A stretch of DNA of 14,817 bases, from contig NHDJ01000018.1 in NCBI GenBank assembly GCA_002167265.1, positions 14,039-28,855 on the forward strand, given 5' to 3'. The position numbers and the translations under genes are program-made. A model generated the notes under the pieces. The model ran no database searches, was not told the DNA's origin, and was given only the letters and a program-made list of their open reading frames with translations. The stretch is from Verrucomicrobia bacterium TMED56. Lineage in GTDB: Bacteria; Verrucomicrobiota; Verrucomicrobiia; Opitutales; Seribacteraceae. Below, piece by piece: positions 2,767-14,565 of the stretch (position 1 is the stretch's first letter; each line of letters starts with the position of its first letter).

Positions 2767-3528
2767 TTACAGGAAACTCAATTGACTTTGTTCATTCTCG
2801 ACAGATGTGACCCTAGACTCGGATATCAGATTACGTAAAAAGCGGGGACGGTGATGCTCGGTGGGACCCTTTTCCTTGAGAGCGTGCAGATGCACAGGGG
2901 TTCCGTATCCTTTATTTGAATCAAACCCAAAAGAGGGAAATTGCTGGTGAAGCTCACGCATCAAACGGTCCCGGTTTACTTTTGCCAGCATCGAAGCCAT
3001 GGCGATTGCTAATGATTTCGTATCTCCCCTGACTAGACCCTCGTGCTTGTAAGGTAACTTTTTCATCGGCCGACCATCCACCATCACTTCCCAGTCTTTC
3101 GCCGGATCCTGTGTCTTATCAAAAAGTTCGAGAGATATTTTTTTTACCGGTTTCCACAGCCAATCGCTTTTGGCGGACACCTGATCCATTGCCCTTTGCA
3201 TAGCTATACAAGTTGCTCCCACAATGTTATGTTCTTCGATTTCCTCCACCGAAGCAATACCCGTGGACCCGTACAGGACCTTTTTGTCAGCCAACTCTAG
3301 AATTTGAGCGAAAAGTTCTTCCCGTTTGATCTCATCAAAATGTTTTGAATCATTCATCTCCTCGGTTAATTTTCGATTCTTGGCACAAGTAAAAAAGATG
3401 GCTGGTAAAATGACGGCTCCCGCCACCACAGGACCAGCTAGGCAACCTCGCCCTGCCTCATCTACCCCAACAATCCCGATTAGGCTTTGGGTCAATTTTC
3501 GATCATGTGTCCAACGAGGATTAGGCAT
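2767..3528 (-). CDS. rnhB: Ribonuclease HII
   Basis: Cleaves RNA in RNA-DNA hybrids and, as a family trait, nicks at single ribonucleotides in DNA to start ribonucleotide excision repair. The 253-residue product has GVDEAGRGCLAGPVVAGAV with the catalytic Asp23-Glu24 pair, NDSKHFDEIKREEL, IEEHNIVGATCIAMQRA, VMVDGRP (Asp151), GDTKSLAIAMASMLAKVNRDR (the GD aspartate at 169 being the fourth metal ligand), and GFDSNKGYGT. It is somewhat longer than the usual ~200 residues because of a short insert around residues 115-145 and a C-terminal tail. ATG at 3528 is preferred; a TTG directly upstream (3531) would add one residue. It lies 13 bases after rnhC, so two type-2 RNases H are encoded side by side in one operon. 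Confidence 0.96.
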   Translation of the reverse strand: MPNPRWTHDRKLTQSLIGIVGVDEAGRGCLAGPVVAGAVILPAIFFTCAKNRKLTEEMNDSKHFDEIKREELFAQILELADKKVLYGSTGIASVEEIEEHNIVGATCIAMQRAMDQVSAKSDWLWKPVKKISLELFDKTQDPAKDWEVMVDGRPMKKLPYKHEGLVRGDTKSLAIAMASMLAKVNRDRLMRELHQQFPSFGFDSNKGYGTPVHLHALKEKGPTEHHRPRFLRNLISESRVTSVENEQSQLSFL

Positions 3529-3541
3529 CAAATGATGAAAT

Positions 3542-4528
3542 TTATTTTTTCCATTTCGGATTCCAAACCTTTTTCATTGGAGGCTTTTTGCCCATAGCTT
3601 CATAAGCGGTCTTGAAGTGCATCTTGCAAAAATCCTGCATTTTGGACTCTCCAAACTTAGTAAATAGTTTGGCAGCCACCTCCTTTGCCTGCGAACCCGA
3701 CCCCTTTGGAATCTTACAACCAGCCAAGTCCTCCAACTTCTGCATCTGTTGAAGCCAAGTGGCTCGGGCAATAATTGAGGCAGCTGCGACCACCGGATCC
3801 TCTTCTGCTTTGGTTCTCATTTGCAGTTCAAAATCCAAATCCTCCACATATTTTTGGACTAAGGGCTGTTTTGAAAATTGATCAAGTAATCCCCACTTTG
3901 GTTTTCTTAATTCCAAAGCATCATTTAGGGCCTTCCCGTGTAGCCAAGCAAGCAATTTATTTAAATTCTCTCCAAACTTCAGGTACAACTCATTGTACTT
4001 CTCCATCCCTGTAAATGCAGTTTTCACGACCACTCCTCTGGTCGAAGCAATGGACTTAGCCATCTTCATAATCGCTCCATCTGTAATCGTCTTACTATCT
4101 CTTATCCCCAGTTTCATCCATGCACTTACCATCTCTCCATCCGCAATTACACAAGCACAGACAACTGGACCAAATAAATCACCCTTCCCGCTCTCATCGA
4201 GACCCGCGTGCGGTTCAAACCATTCTGGATGGTTGACCTCCTCGTACCCCATAATGAACTCACCTGTTATCTCGGGTTCTAAAATATTTGTCACAAAATC
4301 CTCAGTCCCTTTTCCCTGCACCACCAATTTCCCACTTTCATAGGCAGTCACTTTGACTGAGTCCCCTTCAAACGCGTGCGTTGCGTACTGCACCTTCCGA
4401 GTTGACCATCCACGGGTTCGCAGTACCTCACCAAGTTTATCAACTTGAATAGACGACAACTTGAGGTTGTACATCGACTTTTTCTTTGCCTCTCCACCAT
4501 CTTTATTTGTAGCCAAACTTGCCATCAT
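3542..4528 (-). CDS. rnhC: Ribonuclease HIII
   Basis: Endonuclease for the RNA strand of RNA-DNA hybrids, the HIII branch of type-2 RNases H. Numbered from the chosen ATG (328 residues), a lysine-rich leader precedes a TBP-like N-terminal substrate-binding domain at about 20-80 (YNLKLSSIQVDKLGEVL ... KLVVQGKG). The catalytic domain follows, with HAGLDESGKGDLFGPVV (the DESGKGD hallmark of HIII at 111-117), GIRDSKTI, YNELYLKFGENLNKLLAW, GLLDQF (Asp216) and AEEDPVVAAASIIAR (Asp244). The start is uncertain. ATGs at 4528, 4525, 4540 and 4474 are all possible, and the longest reading (4594) would overlap the mutY start antisense. 4528 is chosen for a GGA about 7 bases upstream. It appears to be the first gene of the minus-strand operon. 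Confidence 0.94.
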   Translation of the reverse strand: MMASLATNKDGGEAKKKSMYNLKLSSIQVDKLGEVLRTRGWSTRKVQYATHAFEGDSVKVTAYESGKLVVQGKGTEDFVTNILEPEITGEFIMGYEEVNHPEWFEPHAGLDESGKGDLFGPVVCACVIADGEMVSAWMKLGIRDSKTITDGAIMKMAKSIASTRGVVVKTAFTGMEKYNELYLKFGENLNKLLAWLHGKALNDALELRKPKWGLLDQFSKQPLVQKYVEDLDFELQMRTKAEEDPVVAAASIIARATWLQQMQKLEDLAGCKIPKGSGSQAKEVAAKLFTKFGESKMQDFCKMHFKTAYEAMGKKPPMKKVWNPKWKK

Positions 4529-4573
4529 CGAATTATCCATGAAAAAGAGATTAGGAAAACGCAACTGCCAAGC
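4529..4573. promoter_or_regulatory. Divergent start region between rnhC and mutY
   Basis: The two genes face away from each other, so promoters for the five-gene minus-strand operon and for mutY should lie in or near this interval, possibly reaching into the rnhC leader up to about 4474. I see no pair of -35/-10 boxes convincing enough to name. The exact limits depend on the unresolved rnhC start. The placement is inferred from gene orientation only. Confidence 0.35.
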
Positions 4574-5632
4574 ATGAAAAAAATCAAACCACATCCATCC
4601 CTTCCAAAACTTAATGACAGTTCAAGTTTCCGTGATGAGTTGCTTAATTGGTACGATCACAATCATCGAATCCTCCCTTGGAGAAGCGAGCCGACACTTT
4701 ACAAAACTGTTCTTTCGGAATTTATGCTACAACAGACCCGAGTATCAACTGTACTGCCTTATTTTGATAATTGGATAAAAAAATTTCCTGACTTTGATGA
4801 ATTGGCAAATGCATCCGAAGAACAGGTTATAAAAGCATGGGAAGGATTGGGATACTATTCTCGTGCCCGCAACATCCACAAACTAGCAAAAATCGCAACA
4901 ACCTGGGAAACGCCACCCGATACAATAAAAGAATGGAAGAAACTTCCAGGTGTTGGTCCATATATCGCGGCAGCTGTCACCAGTATCTCTTTAGGTAAAG
5001 CCGAAGCTGTATGTGATGGCAACCTCGTCCGTGTGCTCTCCCGATTATTTGGGATCGACGAAGAGTACAAAGATGGAGCCACTGCCCAGAAAAAACTTCA
5101 ACCCCTTGCACAGTCTATCATCGATCAAGATCGACCGGGAGATTACAACCAAGGGATGATGGAGCTTGGTGCCACCGTCTGTCACCGTCATTCTCCTCTT
5201 TGCATGTCTTGTCCAGTTCTAAATTTTTGTAGAAGTGGTAAAACAGGTGATGCTGAAGATTTCCCCAGGATACAAAAAAAGAAAAAAAAGAAAAAAAATA
5301 TCCAACGATATTGGGTGGAATCTACAAAAGGACTGCTCCTGTGTATGGGTATGAATTCAAAAAATAAACTAATGGGAATTTTTGAACTTCCTGATCACTT
5401 ACCAACTTCTGTGAATATTGCATTCGATAGGCACCAATTATTAGCCACGAAAAAAAGAACTATTGGCAATGTGGACTATAATGAAAAAATCTTTCGAATT
5501 TCGAATTTTAATGAAACTAACCTTAACCTTGGAGAAAATTACCGCTGGATTTCTCGACAGAAGCTAGAAAATGTTACATTATCAGGTCCCCACAGAAAAT
5601 GGATTACTGAGTTGTGGAAGGTTCCAAAATAA
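4574..5632 (+). CDS. mutY: A/G-specific adenine DNA glycosylase
   Basis: Removes adenine mispaired with 8-oxoguanine, preventing G:C to T:A mutation. In the 352-residue product, LPWR (34-37), SEFMLQQTRVSTVLPYF (catalytic Glu49), WEGLGYYSRARN (89-100), a helix-hairpin-helix LPGVGPYIAAAV (124-135) and the catalytic Asp148 in VCDGNLVRVLSR are all present. A Cys-x6-Cys-x2-Cys-x5-Cys cluster loop (203, 210, 213, 219) should bind [4Fe-4S]. The C-terminal NUDIX-like domain (about 245-350) is recognisable, but the loop usually reading FSH appears as IGN (297-299). The interdomain linker holds seven consecutive lysines (235-241) encoded by an interrupted A-run. The ATG at 4574 is chosen because the frame upstream to 4445 is antisense to the rnhC N-terminus and gives no family-like sequence. 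The stop abuts the convergent mpl stop. Confidence 0.95.
   Translation: MKKIKPHPSLPKLNDSSSFRDELLNWYDHNHRILPWRSEPTLYKTVLSEFMLQQTRVSTVLPYFDNWIKKFPDFDELANASEEQVIKAWEGLGYYSRARNIHKLAKIATTWETPPDTIKEWKKLPGVGPYIAAAVTSISLGKAEAVCDGNLVRVLSRLFGIDEEYKDGATAQKKLQPLAQSIIDQDRPGDYNQGMMELGATVCHRHSPLCMSCPVLNFCRSGKTGDAEDFPRIQKKKKKKKNIQRYWVESTKGLLLCMGMNSKNKLMGIFELPDHLPTSVNIAFDRHQLLATKKRTIGNVDYNEKIFRISNFNETNLNLGENYRWISRQKLENVTLSGPHRKWITELWKVPK
5274..5298 (+). repeat. Interrupted poly-A tract inside mutY
   Basis: The tract reads A7-G-A8-G-A8 within the mutY linker, coding for seven lysines (residues 235-241) between the FeS-cluster loop and the C-terminal domain. Runs of eight A are slippage-prone during replication and transcription. 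A one-base change would truncate or scramble the 8-oxoG-recognition domain while leaving the catalytic half. The sequence here is in frame. Confidence 0.9.
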
Positions 5633-7084
5633 TTACTTCCTCCTTTCAAAAGAATCAGTAAATCTGTCAATCACACCGTCAAATGATCCATTGGAAAAAA
5701 ATACTACCAAGGAAGGATTGGAAAATTCTGAACTCATAAGAAATCTTTCAAGGTTTTGATTCGATTCAAAAGCATGACCTTTCTTGCCGAGTTCATTAAT
5801 ACGAATAATCATATTTTGTGGATCGATCCTATTTTCCGGAGGGATTTTTTCCGCTCTATAAATAGCACCAAGCAAGGCAACATCAGCTAGAGCAAGAGCT
5901 TCAACAAATCGGGATTCAAAAATATTGGTTACTGCAGTATTACTGCGAGGTTCAAAACAGGCAATAATTTCACGGTCTGGCCAGCGTGCCCGAAGGGATT
6001 CAATTGCCCCGGTAATGGCAGTGGGGTGATGGGCAAAATCAGAAAGAATGATCAATTTTTCACTTTCGTGCAAAATTTCCTGTCGGCGTTTGACGCCGGT
6101 ACAAGAGGAAAAATCCGGTAAGGTTGCAAAAGCAAATGGATTAAAATCGGGATTGTTCATTCGCTCACCTGATTCGATATTTTGCATCAGCACAGAAGCC
6201 AAGGTTGCCATAGCCAAGTTTCTGGCATTGAAAAGACCATGCATTTGCCAATCTATTTGCATGACTTTATTACCTTTCCATACCAACCCAAAACGGCTTC
6301 CCTTAGAATCTTCAGAAAACTCCGTAATCTGTAAACCATTACCTTCACTTAAACCAACATTTATGGTGGATGTCCAAGGTGCATCTGATAATTCTTTAAG
6401 ATTAGGATCGTCACCATTTATCAAAACATATCCATCAGAAGGAACTATCCGCAATAAGTGAGAAAAACTTCGTGAAATGTCGAGCAAATCCCTGAAAATA
6501 TCCCCATGATCAAATTCCAAATTATTAAGGATTAGAATCTTGGGCCGATAATGAATAAATTTACTTCTTTTATCAAAGAATGCGGAATCATATTCATCGC
6601 CTTCTATAACAAATGGCGATGAATCCGTCCCCAATTCATTGCCAGAAGGCAAGTCGAGAGGAACTCCTCCAATAAGATAACCCGGGGTGACTCCTGCTTG
6701 AGCAAGAGCAAAAGAAGTGAGTGAAGTGGTAGTAGTCTTGCCATGGGTGCCAGCAACTACGACAGCAGGACGATTTGCAATGAGATCCTCGCCGATCAAC
6801 TGTGGAAGTGAGACGAAGGGAATTTTGCGACTGCGTAAGAGATATTCAACCTGTGAATTCCCACGGGAAACCGCATTGCCAACGACTACCCGGTCGGGTT
6901 GCCAATTGAGCATTTCATTCTCGGCATAGCCTTCGAAGAGATCTACCCCTGCAGATTTTAGAACATCTGACATCGGAGGATAAACCCCATTATCGGAGCC
7001 TGCCACTTCATGGCCCATCTTTTTTAACAGGACAGCCGCATTGCCCATAGCTGTTCCACAAACCCCAATAAAAAATACCCGCAT
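5633..7084 (-). CDS. mpl: UDP-N-acetylmuramate:L-alanyl-gamma-D-glutamyl-meso-diaminopimelate ligase
   Basis: Murein-recycling ligase of the Mur family: it joins the salvaged tripeptide L-Ala-gamma-D-Glu-meso-DAP to UDP-MurNAc with ATP, bypassing MurC, MurD and MurE. The 483-residue product begins with the Mur N-terminal fold (MRVFFIGVCGTAMGN, AGSDNGVYPPMSDVL, VVVGNAVSRGNSQVEYLL). The ATP-binding loop AGTHGKTTTTS (111-121) follows. EGDEYDSAFFDKRSKF (161-176) and NNLEFDHGDIF (187-197) separate Mpl from MurC. Then come NARNLAMATLA, GVKRRQE (330-336), SDFAHHPTAI and CFEPRSNT. ATG at 7084 starts exactly at the first Rossmann strand; a TTG at 7117 would add an 11-residue tail not expected for the family. 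It implies meso-DAP peptidoglycan, and with that a source of meso-DAP, which matters for the altered DapF homologue in this window. Confidence 0.95.
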   Translation of the reverse strand: MRVFFIGVCGTAMGNAAVLLKKMGHEVAGSDNGVYPPMSDVLKSAGVDLFEGYAENEMLNWQPDRVVVGNAVSRGNSQVEYLLRSRKIPFVSLPQLIGEDLIANRPAVVVAGTHGKTTTTSLTSFALAQAGVTPGYLIGGVPLDLPSGNELGTDSSPFVIEGDEYDSAFFDKRSKFIHYRPKILILNNLEFDHGDIFRDLLDISRSFSHLLRIVPSDGYVLINGDDPNLKELSDAPWTSTINVGLSEGNGLQITEFSEDSKGSRFGLVWKGNKVMQIDWQMHGLFNARNLAMATLASVLMQNIESGERMNNPDFNPFAFATLPDFSSCTGVKRRQEILHESEKLIILSDFAHHPTAITGAIESLRARWPDREIIACFEPRSNTAVTNIFESRFVEALALADVALLGAIYRAEKIPPENRIDPQNMIIRINELGKKGHAFESNQNLERFLMSSEFSNPSLVVFFSNGSFDGVIDRFTDSFERRK

Positions 7085-7170
7085 CTTTAAATACTGAAAA
7101 ATTCCTTGGACAAACAAAAGACAAAAAGTGATTTGCCTCGACTTCCTTCGCTTTTTTTTGGAAATCGAAA
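7085..7170. promoter_or_regulatory. Divergent intergenic region between mpl and purD
   Basis: These 86 bases separate two divergent start codons and should contain promoters for both mpl and the purD-led plus-strand genes. The region is AT-rich with a run of nine T near 7152-7159. A TTGGAC at 7106-7111 resembles a -35 box, but no matching TATAAT-like box lies at the proper distance. Assignment is positional. Confidence 0.4.
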
Positions 7171-13132: not shown

Positions 13133-13176
13133 ACAAGCTTGCCATCATCATTGCCTCATACAAGTTGATTTGCTCA

Positions 13177-13701
13177 ATGAAAGACTTTTATCAGCAAAAA
13201 CTCGTTACAATATGGCAAAAAGCAGTGAATCTCTACAAATCTGGAAACTGCAAGGTCGATAGCTTTCCCATTGATGATGATCTTCCATTCCTTACCGATA
13301 TGGGGATGAAAAAGATCGATGTGTTCGACTTCGCTGAGGATTGGATTTGTGAAGGTGAACCTGATCTGGCCACATTTGTCCTCATCCACGATCAGAGAAG
13401 GGACTACTTTTGGGAAGTACAAAACAAAGTTCCATCTACAAATATTTTGGATACCGGTACTCTGCCAGCTAAAGATGCAGAGATCGGTGGGATCCGTTGG
13501 TTGCCAAGGATTATTCCTAAAGCCAGGGCAAAACTAAAAGGAGAACTACCACGGGAAACCATGTTTTGTTGCGGGGGAGACCGGAATTTCTTTCATCAAA
13601 ACAGAATACATCCTTCCGAATTTCTAGCACTTATTCGACGAGCCAAGGCAGATAATCAAAAAATTATCGACTGGGTCGTTCAACGGGCAAAAAGAATTTA
13701 A
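13177..13701 (+). CDS. DUF5069 domain-containing protein
   Basis: A 174-residue cytoplasmic protein of unknown function. There is no signal peptide or membrane segment. The C-terminal half matches my memory of the DUF5069 family: EIGGIRWLPRIIPKARAKLKGELP (102-125), then MFCCGGDRNFF (129-139) and PSEFLALIRRA (146-156), ending in KIIDWVVQR. The N-terminal half is Asp/Glu- and aromatic-rich, with DVFDFAEDWICEGEPDL (48-64) and RRDYFWEVQ (74-82). A Cys-Cys pair (131-132) precedes GGDR and could be of structural interest. ATG at 13177 is chosen over a TTG at 13165, which would add four residues. It lies 44 bases after rnr and 18 before dapF, so co-transcription is likely. No function can be given from the context. 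Confidence 0.8.
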   Translation: MKDFYQQKLVTIWQKAVNLYKSGNCKVDSFPIDDDLPFLTDMGMKKIDVFDFAEDWICEGEPDLATFVLIHDQRRDYFWEVQNKVPSTNILDTGTLPAKDAEIGGIRWLPRIIPKARAKLKGELPRETMFCCGGDRNFFHQNRIHPSEFLALIRRAKADNQKIIDWVVQRAKRI

Positions 13702-13719
13702 TCCACAATTATTTATTTT

Positions 13720-14565
13720 ATGAAATTTGAAAAATACCATGCATTAGGAAACGATTACCTTGTGTTCGATCCTCAGGGTGAAGAAAAAACTTTTACCAAT
13801 GATGAAATAATTCGTATTTGCCACAGAAACTTTGGTCTTGGTTCCGACGGTATATTAATGGGGCCTCTTAGATCAGATATAGCAGATTTTGGACTTAGGA
13901 TTCTCAATCCAGATGGAAGTGAGGCTGAAAAAAGTGGAAACGGTTTACGAATTTTTGCAAGATATCTACACGACTGTGAAATTGTAAACACTATCCCTTT
14001 TACTGTAGACACCTTAGGAGGTGTGGTAACTTGTGAAGTTTCCTCCAAACTGAATTCAATCGCCGTAGAAATGGGTCAAGTCAGCTTTCATAGTGATCTG
14101 GTTCCTGTTTCAGTAGAGGGCCATCCGCGCGAAGTAATTCAAGAAAATATCTCCGTTGGCGGACAAACCTATCAGTTTTATGCTGCAACGATAGGTAATC
14201 CTCACTGCGTGGTTCCTCTTCCTGAAATTTCTGAATCTCTCGCACTTCAACTTGGACCTGAGTTGGAAAATCATCCAATTTTCCCAAATCGTACCAATGT
14301 CCAACTCCTTAAGATAATTGATCGAAATAGAATAAGAATTGAAATTTGGGAGCGTGGTGCAGGATACACTCTTGCCTCAGGCAGTAGTAGCTCAGCAGCT
14401 GGTGCGGTCGCCCGAAAAATGGGTGCTTGTGATCAGGAAATTACTGTTGAAATGCCAGGAGGTGAAATTAACCTTGTTATTGACGACAGTTATAATGTGC
14501 AGATGACAGGTCCGGCAACTCGTGTCGCGACAATGCATCTTTATGAAGAATGCCTGAAGGCTTGA
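13720..14565 (+). CDS. dapF: Diaminopimelate epimerase homologue with both catalytic cysteines replaced by serine
   Basis: DapF normally interconverts LL- and meso-diaminopimelate for lysine and peptidoglycan, using a thiolate/thiol pair. This 281-residue protein has the whole family frame: KYHALGNDYLVFD (5-17), GLGSDGIL (39-46), NPDGSEAE (63-70), GNGLRIFAR (73-81), ATIGNPHCVV (156-165), FPNRTNVQ (188-195), WERGAGYTLA (210-219) and a C-terminal GPATRVA. However, the usual MCGNG reads KSGNG (Ser72, codon agt) and the usual ACGTG reads ASGSS (Ser220, codon tca), so both catalytic cysteines are serine. Asn and Glu/Arg residues that bind the amino-acid backbone remain. The frame is intact and the length normal, so this is not a decayed gene. 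It may be a working Ser/Ser epimerase, a related lyase or epimerase on another substrate, or a non-catalytic relative. The start ATG follows an AT-rich leader without Shine-Dalgarno. Confidence 0.9.
   Translation: MKFEKYHALGNDYLVFDPQGEEKTFTNDEIIRICHRNFGLGSDGILMGPLRSDIADFGLRILNPDGSEAEKSGNGLRIFARYLHDCEIVNTIPFTVDTLGGVVTCEVSSKLNSIAVEMGQVSFHSDLVPVSVEGHPREVIQENISVGGQTYQFYAATIGNPHCVVPLPEISESLALQLGPELENHPIFPNRTNVQLLKIIDRNRIRIEIWERGAGYTLASGSSSSAAGAVARKMGACDQEITVEMPGGEINLVIDDSYNVQMTGPATRVATMHLYEECLKA

Follow-up and report, generated by a model that had tools for sequence, protein, structure and literature searches.

The gene at positions 13720 to 14565 (+) of a 14,817-nucleotide stretch of DNA from the marine Verrucomicrobia bacterium TMED56 (the window; contig NHDJ01000018.1, positions 14,039 to 28,855) is a dapF homologue of what we call the Ser/Ser type: its 281-residue product carries serines where diaminopimelate (DAP) epimerases of the Cys/Cys type, which serve lysine and cell wall synthesis, carry their two acid/base cysteines. 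Judging from sequence, we put at roughly two in three the probability that this protein is the LL-DAP/meso-DAP epimerase of its host lineage, a member of an old and widespread DapF clade with both cysteines replaced by serines. The clade itself is real and conserved; it is a DapF variant that lacks the cysteine pair by which the family is defined, and not canonical Cys/Cys DapF. The open reading frame, profile matches, alignments to solved structures, and homologues all support the family assignment. The frame is uninterrupted, and the product scored 229.6 bits against TIGR00652 (DapF, NCBIfam; residues 1-273; cut-off, 114.65) and 170.6 bits against Pfam PF01678 (cut-off, 34.7). Solved DapF chains with 17 distinct sequences were matched (best, 9mro; 2.1e-56), and in these alignments Ser72 (codon agt, 13933..13935, +) and Ser220 (codon tca, 14377..14379, +) fall on the catalytic cysteines, while Asn11, Asn63, Asn193, Glu211, and Arg212 are retained. 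The original prediction, a note made from the window's letters alone, had claimed just such an intact DapF homologue with serines at both places; the interval it gave, 13933..14379, runs from codon 72 to codon 220, and frame, codons, and alignments all bear it out. An AlphaFold model (49 sequences; mean predicted local distance difference test score, 93.1) has the DapF fold, its closest solved structures are DapF, and its helices 73-85 and 221-233 begin directly after Ser72 and Ser220, respectively. The catalytic cysteine pair of TIGR00652 is absent. Nor did two functionally distinct relatives fit: the window protein scored 61.6 bits against the bifunctional DapF/glutamate racemase model NF038284 (cut-off, 350) and gave no match to the histidine racemase CntK model NF033599 at an E value of 0.001, against which a relative (L061) scored 18.8 (cut-off, 300).

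The serine pair is conserved. It was present in 120 of 120 homologues among the matches listed, gathered without selecting for serines, and in all 112 rows L001-L112, some of whose loci are one gene fetched twice. Across 343 DapF rows in which the pair was read (2 masked rows and 5 non-DapF or fragment rows having been set aside), 198 were Ser/Ser, 145 Cys/Cys, and none mixed. Codons from 109 relatives were mostly AGY at site 72 (107, with 2 TCN) and mostly TCN at site 220 (104, with 5 AGY); because both codon families occur at both sites, serine has been maintained across them. The nonsynonymous rate (dN) was 0.12-0.21, and 6 of 9 comparisons gave saturated or undefined values for the synonymous rate (dS); therefore, strong protein constraint is claimed and a dN/dS ratio is not.

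The original prediction had asked whether Ser/Ser forms form a clade, and they do: when 63 rows were placed in a tree, the 36 with Ser/Ser made up one side of a branch with a Shimodaira-Hasegawa-like approximate likelihood ratio of 100 (a quick search without bootstrapping; L142, L175, L176, and L121 have long branches). Its suggestion of two independent replacements did not hold up, as the tree has a single split between Ser/Ser and Cys/Cys and no mixed pair occurs in the 343 rows. A recent change in the host genome alone is ruled out by the one old clade in the tree. A mobile gene was also rejected, with no match at 60% identity or more in the 116 plasmid and 26 phage records matched. A scan of genome contigs found at least 579 loci encoding relatives; the best 80 of these, which were analyzed, came mostly from Opitutia and other Verrucomicrobiota, the remainder being Nostocales cyanobacteria, two records named Deltaproteobacteria, and one each from KSB1, Sedimentisphaerales, and a Burkholderiales bin. 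A divergent Ser/Ser branch (L214-L216, from genomes G110, G087, and G121) was 46-47% identical to the window protein, with GHTLASGSSSC replacing GYTLASGSSSS; the other members of that family are Cys/Cys or have the main Ser/Ser form. Two very divergent Ser/Ser sequences, L175 and L176, came from small genomes (G041, 0.9 Mb; G047, 1.3 Mb). These reduced genomes retain Ser/Ser DapF, and no LysA match was found in either, as would be expected if meso-DAP were required for the wall and not for lysine.

The distribution of the two forms across the class bears on function. Our class sample of 141 genomes comprised the host and 140 others that were at least 90% complete: exactly one TIGR00652 match was found in 136 and none in 5. 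The pair was read in all 136, giving 101 Cys/Cys and 35 Ser/Ser genomes and none with both; a profile built from 20 Ser/Ser proteins separated the types without overlap (about 292 bits or more versus about 160 or less). All 25 genomes of the same order with DapF were Ser/Ser, the remaining 10 Ser/Ser genomes lying in other families, and one family (f27) held both types in different genomes. DapL makes LL-DAP, and Ddh is the bypass enzyme; the two exceeded their cut-offs in 72 and 17 of the 141 genomes, respectively. Among the 35 Ser/Ser genomes, 17 had DapL without Ddh, 2 had both, 1 had Ddh only, and 15 had neither, so that 32 were without the bypass; the corresponding numbers for the 101 Cys/Cys genomes were 42, 11, 0, and 48. 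Ddh was found in 3 of the 5 genomes lacking DapF (G209, G149, and G166) versus 14 of the other 136 (Fisher P = 0.013, a guide only, the genomes being related). Within family f19, G209 has Ddh and no DapF, and G054 has Ser/Ser DapF and no Ddh.

Closer to the host, the same form prevails. The host draft (2.48 Mb, 84% complete) has one DapF gene; a second, Cys/Cys copy, for which the original prediction proposed a search, was not found in this 84% complete assembly. Among 57 related genomes (host included), 47 had a TIGR00652 match, and the pair was read in 45 of these, DapF fragments in G006 and G050 being left out: 44 were Ser/Ser, one of them (G028) with an extra Cys/Cys copy, and one (G042) was Cys/Cys only. 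DapL passed its cut-off in 33 of these 57 genomes. The LysA-like decarboxylase of the order scores uniformly at about 240-280 bits, under the LysA cut-off, in the Cys/Cys genome G042 as well; in one such protein that was scanned, LysA was the best model, at 266.6 bits versus a cut-off of 297.9. This decarboxylase is a separate LysA subfamily.

The serines do not stand alone. We compared residues in 132 Ser/Ser and 140 Cys/Cys rows, which were chosen for having one pair or the other and from which conservation of the pair is accordingly not claimed; 79 of 351 rows were excluded as duplicate, short, masked, or non-DapF. Asn11 (13750..13752, +), Asn63 (13906..13908, +), and Asn193 (14296..14298, +), substrate-binding positions of DapF, were identical across all rows of both groups, as were Glu211 and Arg212 (14350..14355, +), which also bind the substrate. 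Other positions divided the groups: Lys71 (13930..13932, +) was present in 131 of 132 Ser/Ser rows, with Met in 127 of 140 Cys/Cys rows; Glu208 (14341..14343, +) in 129 of 132, with Arg in 139 of 140; Ser223, of the Ser222-Ser223 pair (14383..14388, +), in all 132, with Gly in all 140; and Ile78 in all 132, with Cys in 138 of 140. Gln195, Ser42, and Tyr216 further mark the clade. Arg at position 212 has a substrate-binding role in DapF, and position 71 falls in the loop preceding the first helix that, in solved DapF, bends around the substrate (PMC12039745). Because so many residues mark the clade, the change amounts to concerted remodeling of the active-site surroundings and not to a simple exchange of Cys for Ser. 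A catalytic cysteine elsewhere in the protein, raised by the original prediction as a possible undoing, was tried and rejected: Cys34 is common to both groups, and two other cysteines are not fully kept, Cys163 being absent from 8 of 132 Ser/Ser rows and Cys237 from 5 of 49.

Gene neighborhoods add a link to the pathway. Both dapA and dapB adjoin dapF in 5 of 80 Ser/Ser loci, a lower bound since many loci are short: the order is dapF-dapA-dapB in L044, L055, and L065 and dapB-dapA-dapF in L061 (KSB1) and L080, where the cluster is preceded by an aspartokinase gene (in L080, dapA was scanned in two parts, neither of which reached the whole-protein cut-off). The Cys/Cys dapF of G028 is likewise arranged dapF-dapA-dapB. 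The usual neighbors in Opitutales are genes for RNase R and a DUF5069 protein, with no dap genes. Within the window, a gene for an Mpl-like ligase (5633..7117, -; 349 bits with the best model, TIGR01081 mpl, which has a cut-off of 388.7, and 221 with murC) hints, through the role of Mpl in recycling meso-DAP muropeptides, at meso-DAP in the host wall.

One-for-one replacement of Cys/Cys DapF, dap gene neighbors, and retained DAP-binding residues give indirect support to the view that the Ser/Ser protein likely works as a DAP epimerase. The substrate would be held as in DapF, by Asn11, Asn63, Asn193, Glu211, Arg212, and the helix N termini; Ser72 and Ser220 would perform the proton transfer, which we infer to be the best mechanism; and the co-changed Lys71, Glu208, and Ser222-Ser223 would tune the serines. 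On balance, and by a modest margin over even odds, we favor a still more specific proposal: that this cysteine-free, cofactor-independent enzyme would be the sole natural DAP epimerase in most of a Verrucomicrobiota order and would occur in several other phyla as well, the clade having been rebuilt from thiol to hydroxyl chemistry with changes at Lys71, Glu208, and Ser222-Ser223 as likely accompaniments.

Known systems offer partial parallels. Cys/Cys DapF (TIGR00652; solved from H. influenzae, E. coli, P. aeruginosa, Anabaena, and Arabidopsis) shares with the window protein its fold, length, DAP-binding residues, GNPHC and WERGAG motifs, and the placement of catalytic residues at helix starts, whereas the window protein has Ser for both Cys and differs from nearly all Cys/Cys rows at Lys71, Glu208, Ser223, Ile78, and other positions. 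The kcat/KM of Cys/Cys DapF is about 1e5 per M per s (PMC12039745). The DapF mutants C73S and C217S (PDB 2q9h and 2q9j) have Ser at one of the two places and a fold close to the model, but they were engineered with one change each and lack the co-changed residues. In the proline racemase superfamily, B9JQV3 is an active 4-hydroxyproline 2-epimerase with Ser93 and a Cys, and B9K4G4 is a trans-3-hydroxyproline dehydratase with Ser90 and Thr256 (PMC4113996); since both use Ser, a catalytic serine is possible in the DapF fold. These proteins share the overall fold and a documented catalytic Ser with the window protein, although theirs is a single Ser, their substrates are other, and they belong to a different family. 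The Cys/Thr aspartate/glutamate racemases Ecl-DER and MMP0739 resemble it in having a hydroxyl residue for one catalytic Cys and in being cofactor independent; unlike it, they belong to another fold family, retain one Cys, and catalyze a reaction reported or predicted to be one-way (PMC8142540, section 7). The residue pairs listed for cofactor-independent enzymes in that section comprise Cys/Cys, Cys/Thr, and others, with no Ser/Ser. We found no report of a natural Ser/Ser DapF in the open literature searched, a coverage that stops short of subscription papers, including the original H. influenzae mutant work.

Several observations weigh against an epimerase role. E. coli dapF mutants are viable, so the epimerase step is not absolutely needed. 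The window dapF does not adjoin dap genes, no host protein exceeds the DapL cut-off, LysA is represented in the host by just one LysA-like fragment where a contig ends, and LysA-like proteins, though present in 46 of the 57 relatives, exceed the LysA cut-off in one only. In the class sample, 16 of the 35 Ser/Ser genomes had no DapL match (other LL-DAP routes not having been searched). Both forms occur side by side in 8 of 8 Nostocales genomes tested, in the KSB1 and Sedimentisphaerales genomes (G067 and G068), and in G028 and G254, and the Ser/Ser copy in such genomes may do something else; among 20 genomes tested by locus, 9 had Ser/Ser alone (a second DapF fragment in G069 was left untyped). 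In the phylum of G065, 188 of 197 genomes had a DapF match, with Ser/Ser found in G065, G218, G254 (beside its Cys/Cys copy), and G329; pair reading there covered these four and the next 26 by score, the latter all Cys/Cys. The Cys/Cys dapF-dapA-dapB cluster of G028 (L327), alongside its Ser/Ser form, may reflect transfer or contamination. Chemically, the pKa of Cys and the ease with which it is desolvated make it the preferred residue in cofactor-independent racemases and epimerases (PMC8142540, section 7), and a single Cys-to-Ser change in the relative HisR greatly lowered turnover (PMC11602996). In cultured relatives, DAP amounted to about one-tenth of that in E. coli, and thin-layer chromatography revealed no DL-DAP (PMC5303756), which fits either slow epimerization or little wall. 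DAP was detected by mass spectrometry in three Lacunisphaera strains, with DapL and DapF listed for one (PMC5303756). Opitutus terrae PB90-1 (taken as genome G155), in which DAP was also measured, has Ser/Ser DapF and DapL but also Ddh, so its DAP is no proof of epimerase activity.

Among the alternatives, the strongest, which we nonetheless consider unlikely, is that the DapF fold was kept for another reaction on a DAP-like amino acid, by epimerization or elimination, with meso-DAP supplied by an unrecognized enzyme. Changed pairs do accompany changed reactions in the same fold, as in Ser/Thr and Cys/Thr dehydratases (PMC4113996; PMC8142540, section 7), cyanobacteria hold the Ser/Ser form beside Cys/Cys DapF, and Opitutaceae cells have low DAP and contain ornithine (PMC5303756). 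Against it stand the strict one-for-one exchange between the Ser/Ser and Cys/Cys forms in all 136 class genomes with a match, the dapA-dapB neighbors, and the invariant DAP-binding residues; moreover, it leaves LL-DAP epimerization unexplained in the 17 genomes that have DapL, no Ddh, and only Ser/Ser DapF. The original prediction had left the choice between a serine-based epimerase and a redirected reaction; the former gained indirect support from replacement, neighbors, and residues, and the latter received no positive evidence. Somewhat less probable again is a DAP epimerase in which Lys71, Cys34, or His162 moves the proton and the serines are only supporting. Lys71, which 131 of 132 Ser/Ser rows carry and which the Cys/Cys rows shown lack at that place, and Cys34, in 132 of 132, would suit this, but Cys34 (119 of 140) and His162 (140 of 140) are common in Cys/Cys rows and hence not clade specific, and the serines recur in all 120 listed homologues, gathered without selection for them (and, by definition, in the 198 Ser/Ser rows). 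That the protein is catalytically dead and serves in binding or regulation is very improbable: E. coli DapF reportedly binds RppH also, but the Ser/Ser protein is the sole DapF in 35 class genomes, persists in the reduced genomes G041 and G047 (about 0.9 and 1.3 Mb), and has whole active-site motifs invariant, points to be set against the strong impairment of studied relatives by Cys-to-Ser changes (PMC11602996). Sequencing or assembly error has next to no probability, despite a fragmented host draft of 148 contigs, and it is ruled out along with a pseudogene by the 120 listed homologues, all Ser/Ser, and the 198 Ser/Ser rows of the 343-row reading, which include the named isolates Cerasicoccus arenae (L033) and Cerasicoccus maritimus (L030); the original prediction was right to discount error, although its argument from two base changes away from a Cys codon was weak in counting a synonymous third base.

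Two further features of the window were noted. The DUF5069 protein is encoded directly before dapF (13165-13701, +), with a homologue in that place in 20 of 72 loci compared, and genes for RNase HII (2767-3531, -) and RNase HIII (3542-4594, -) are adjacent.

Should the Ser/Ser protein turn out not to be an epimerase, genomes with this form only would have no recognized way of converting LL-DAP into meso-DAP, which would also be worth knowing. If it is a natural Ser/Ser DAP epimerase, it would directly test the preference for Cys in such enzymes, would show which neighboring residues let a hydroxyl do the work of a thiol, would put right automated annotation and sequence-motif rules built on Cys, and would predict that these bacteria resist thiol-directed inhibitors of DapF.
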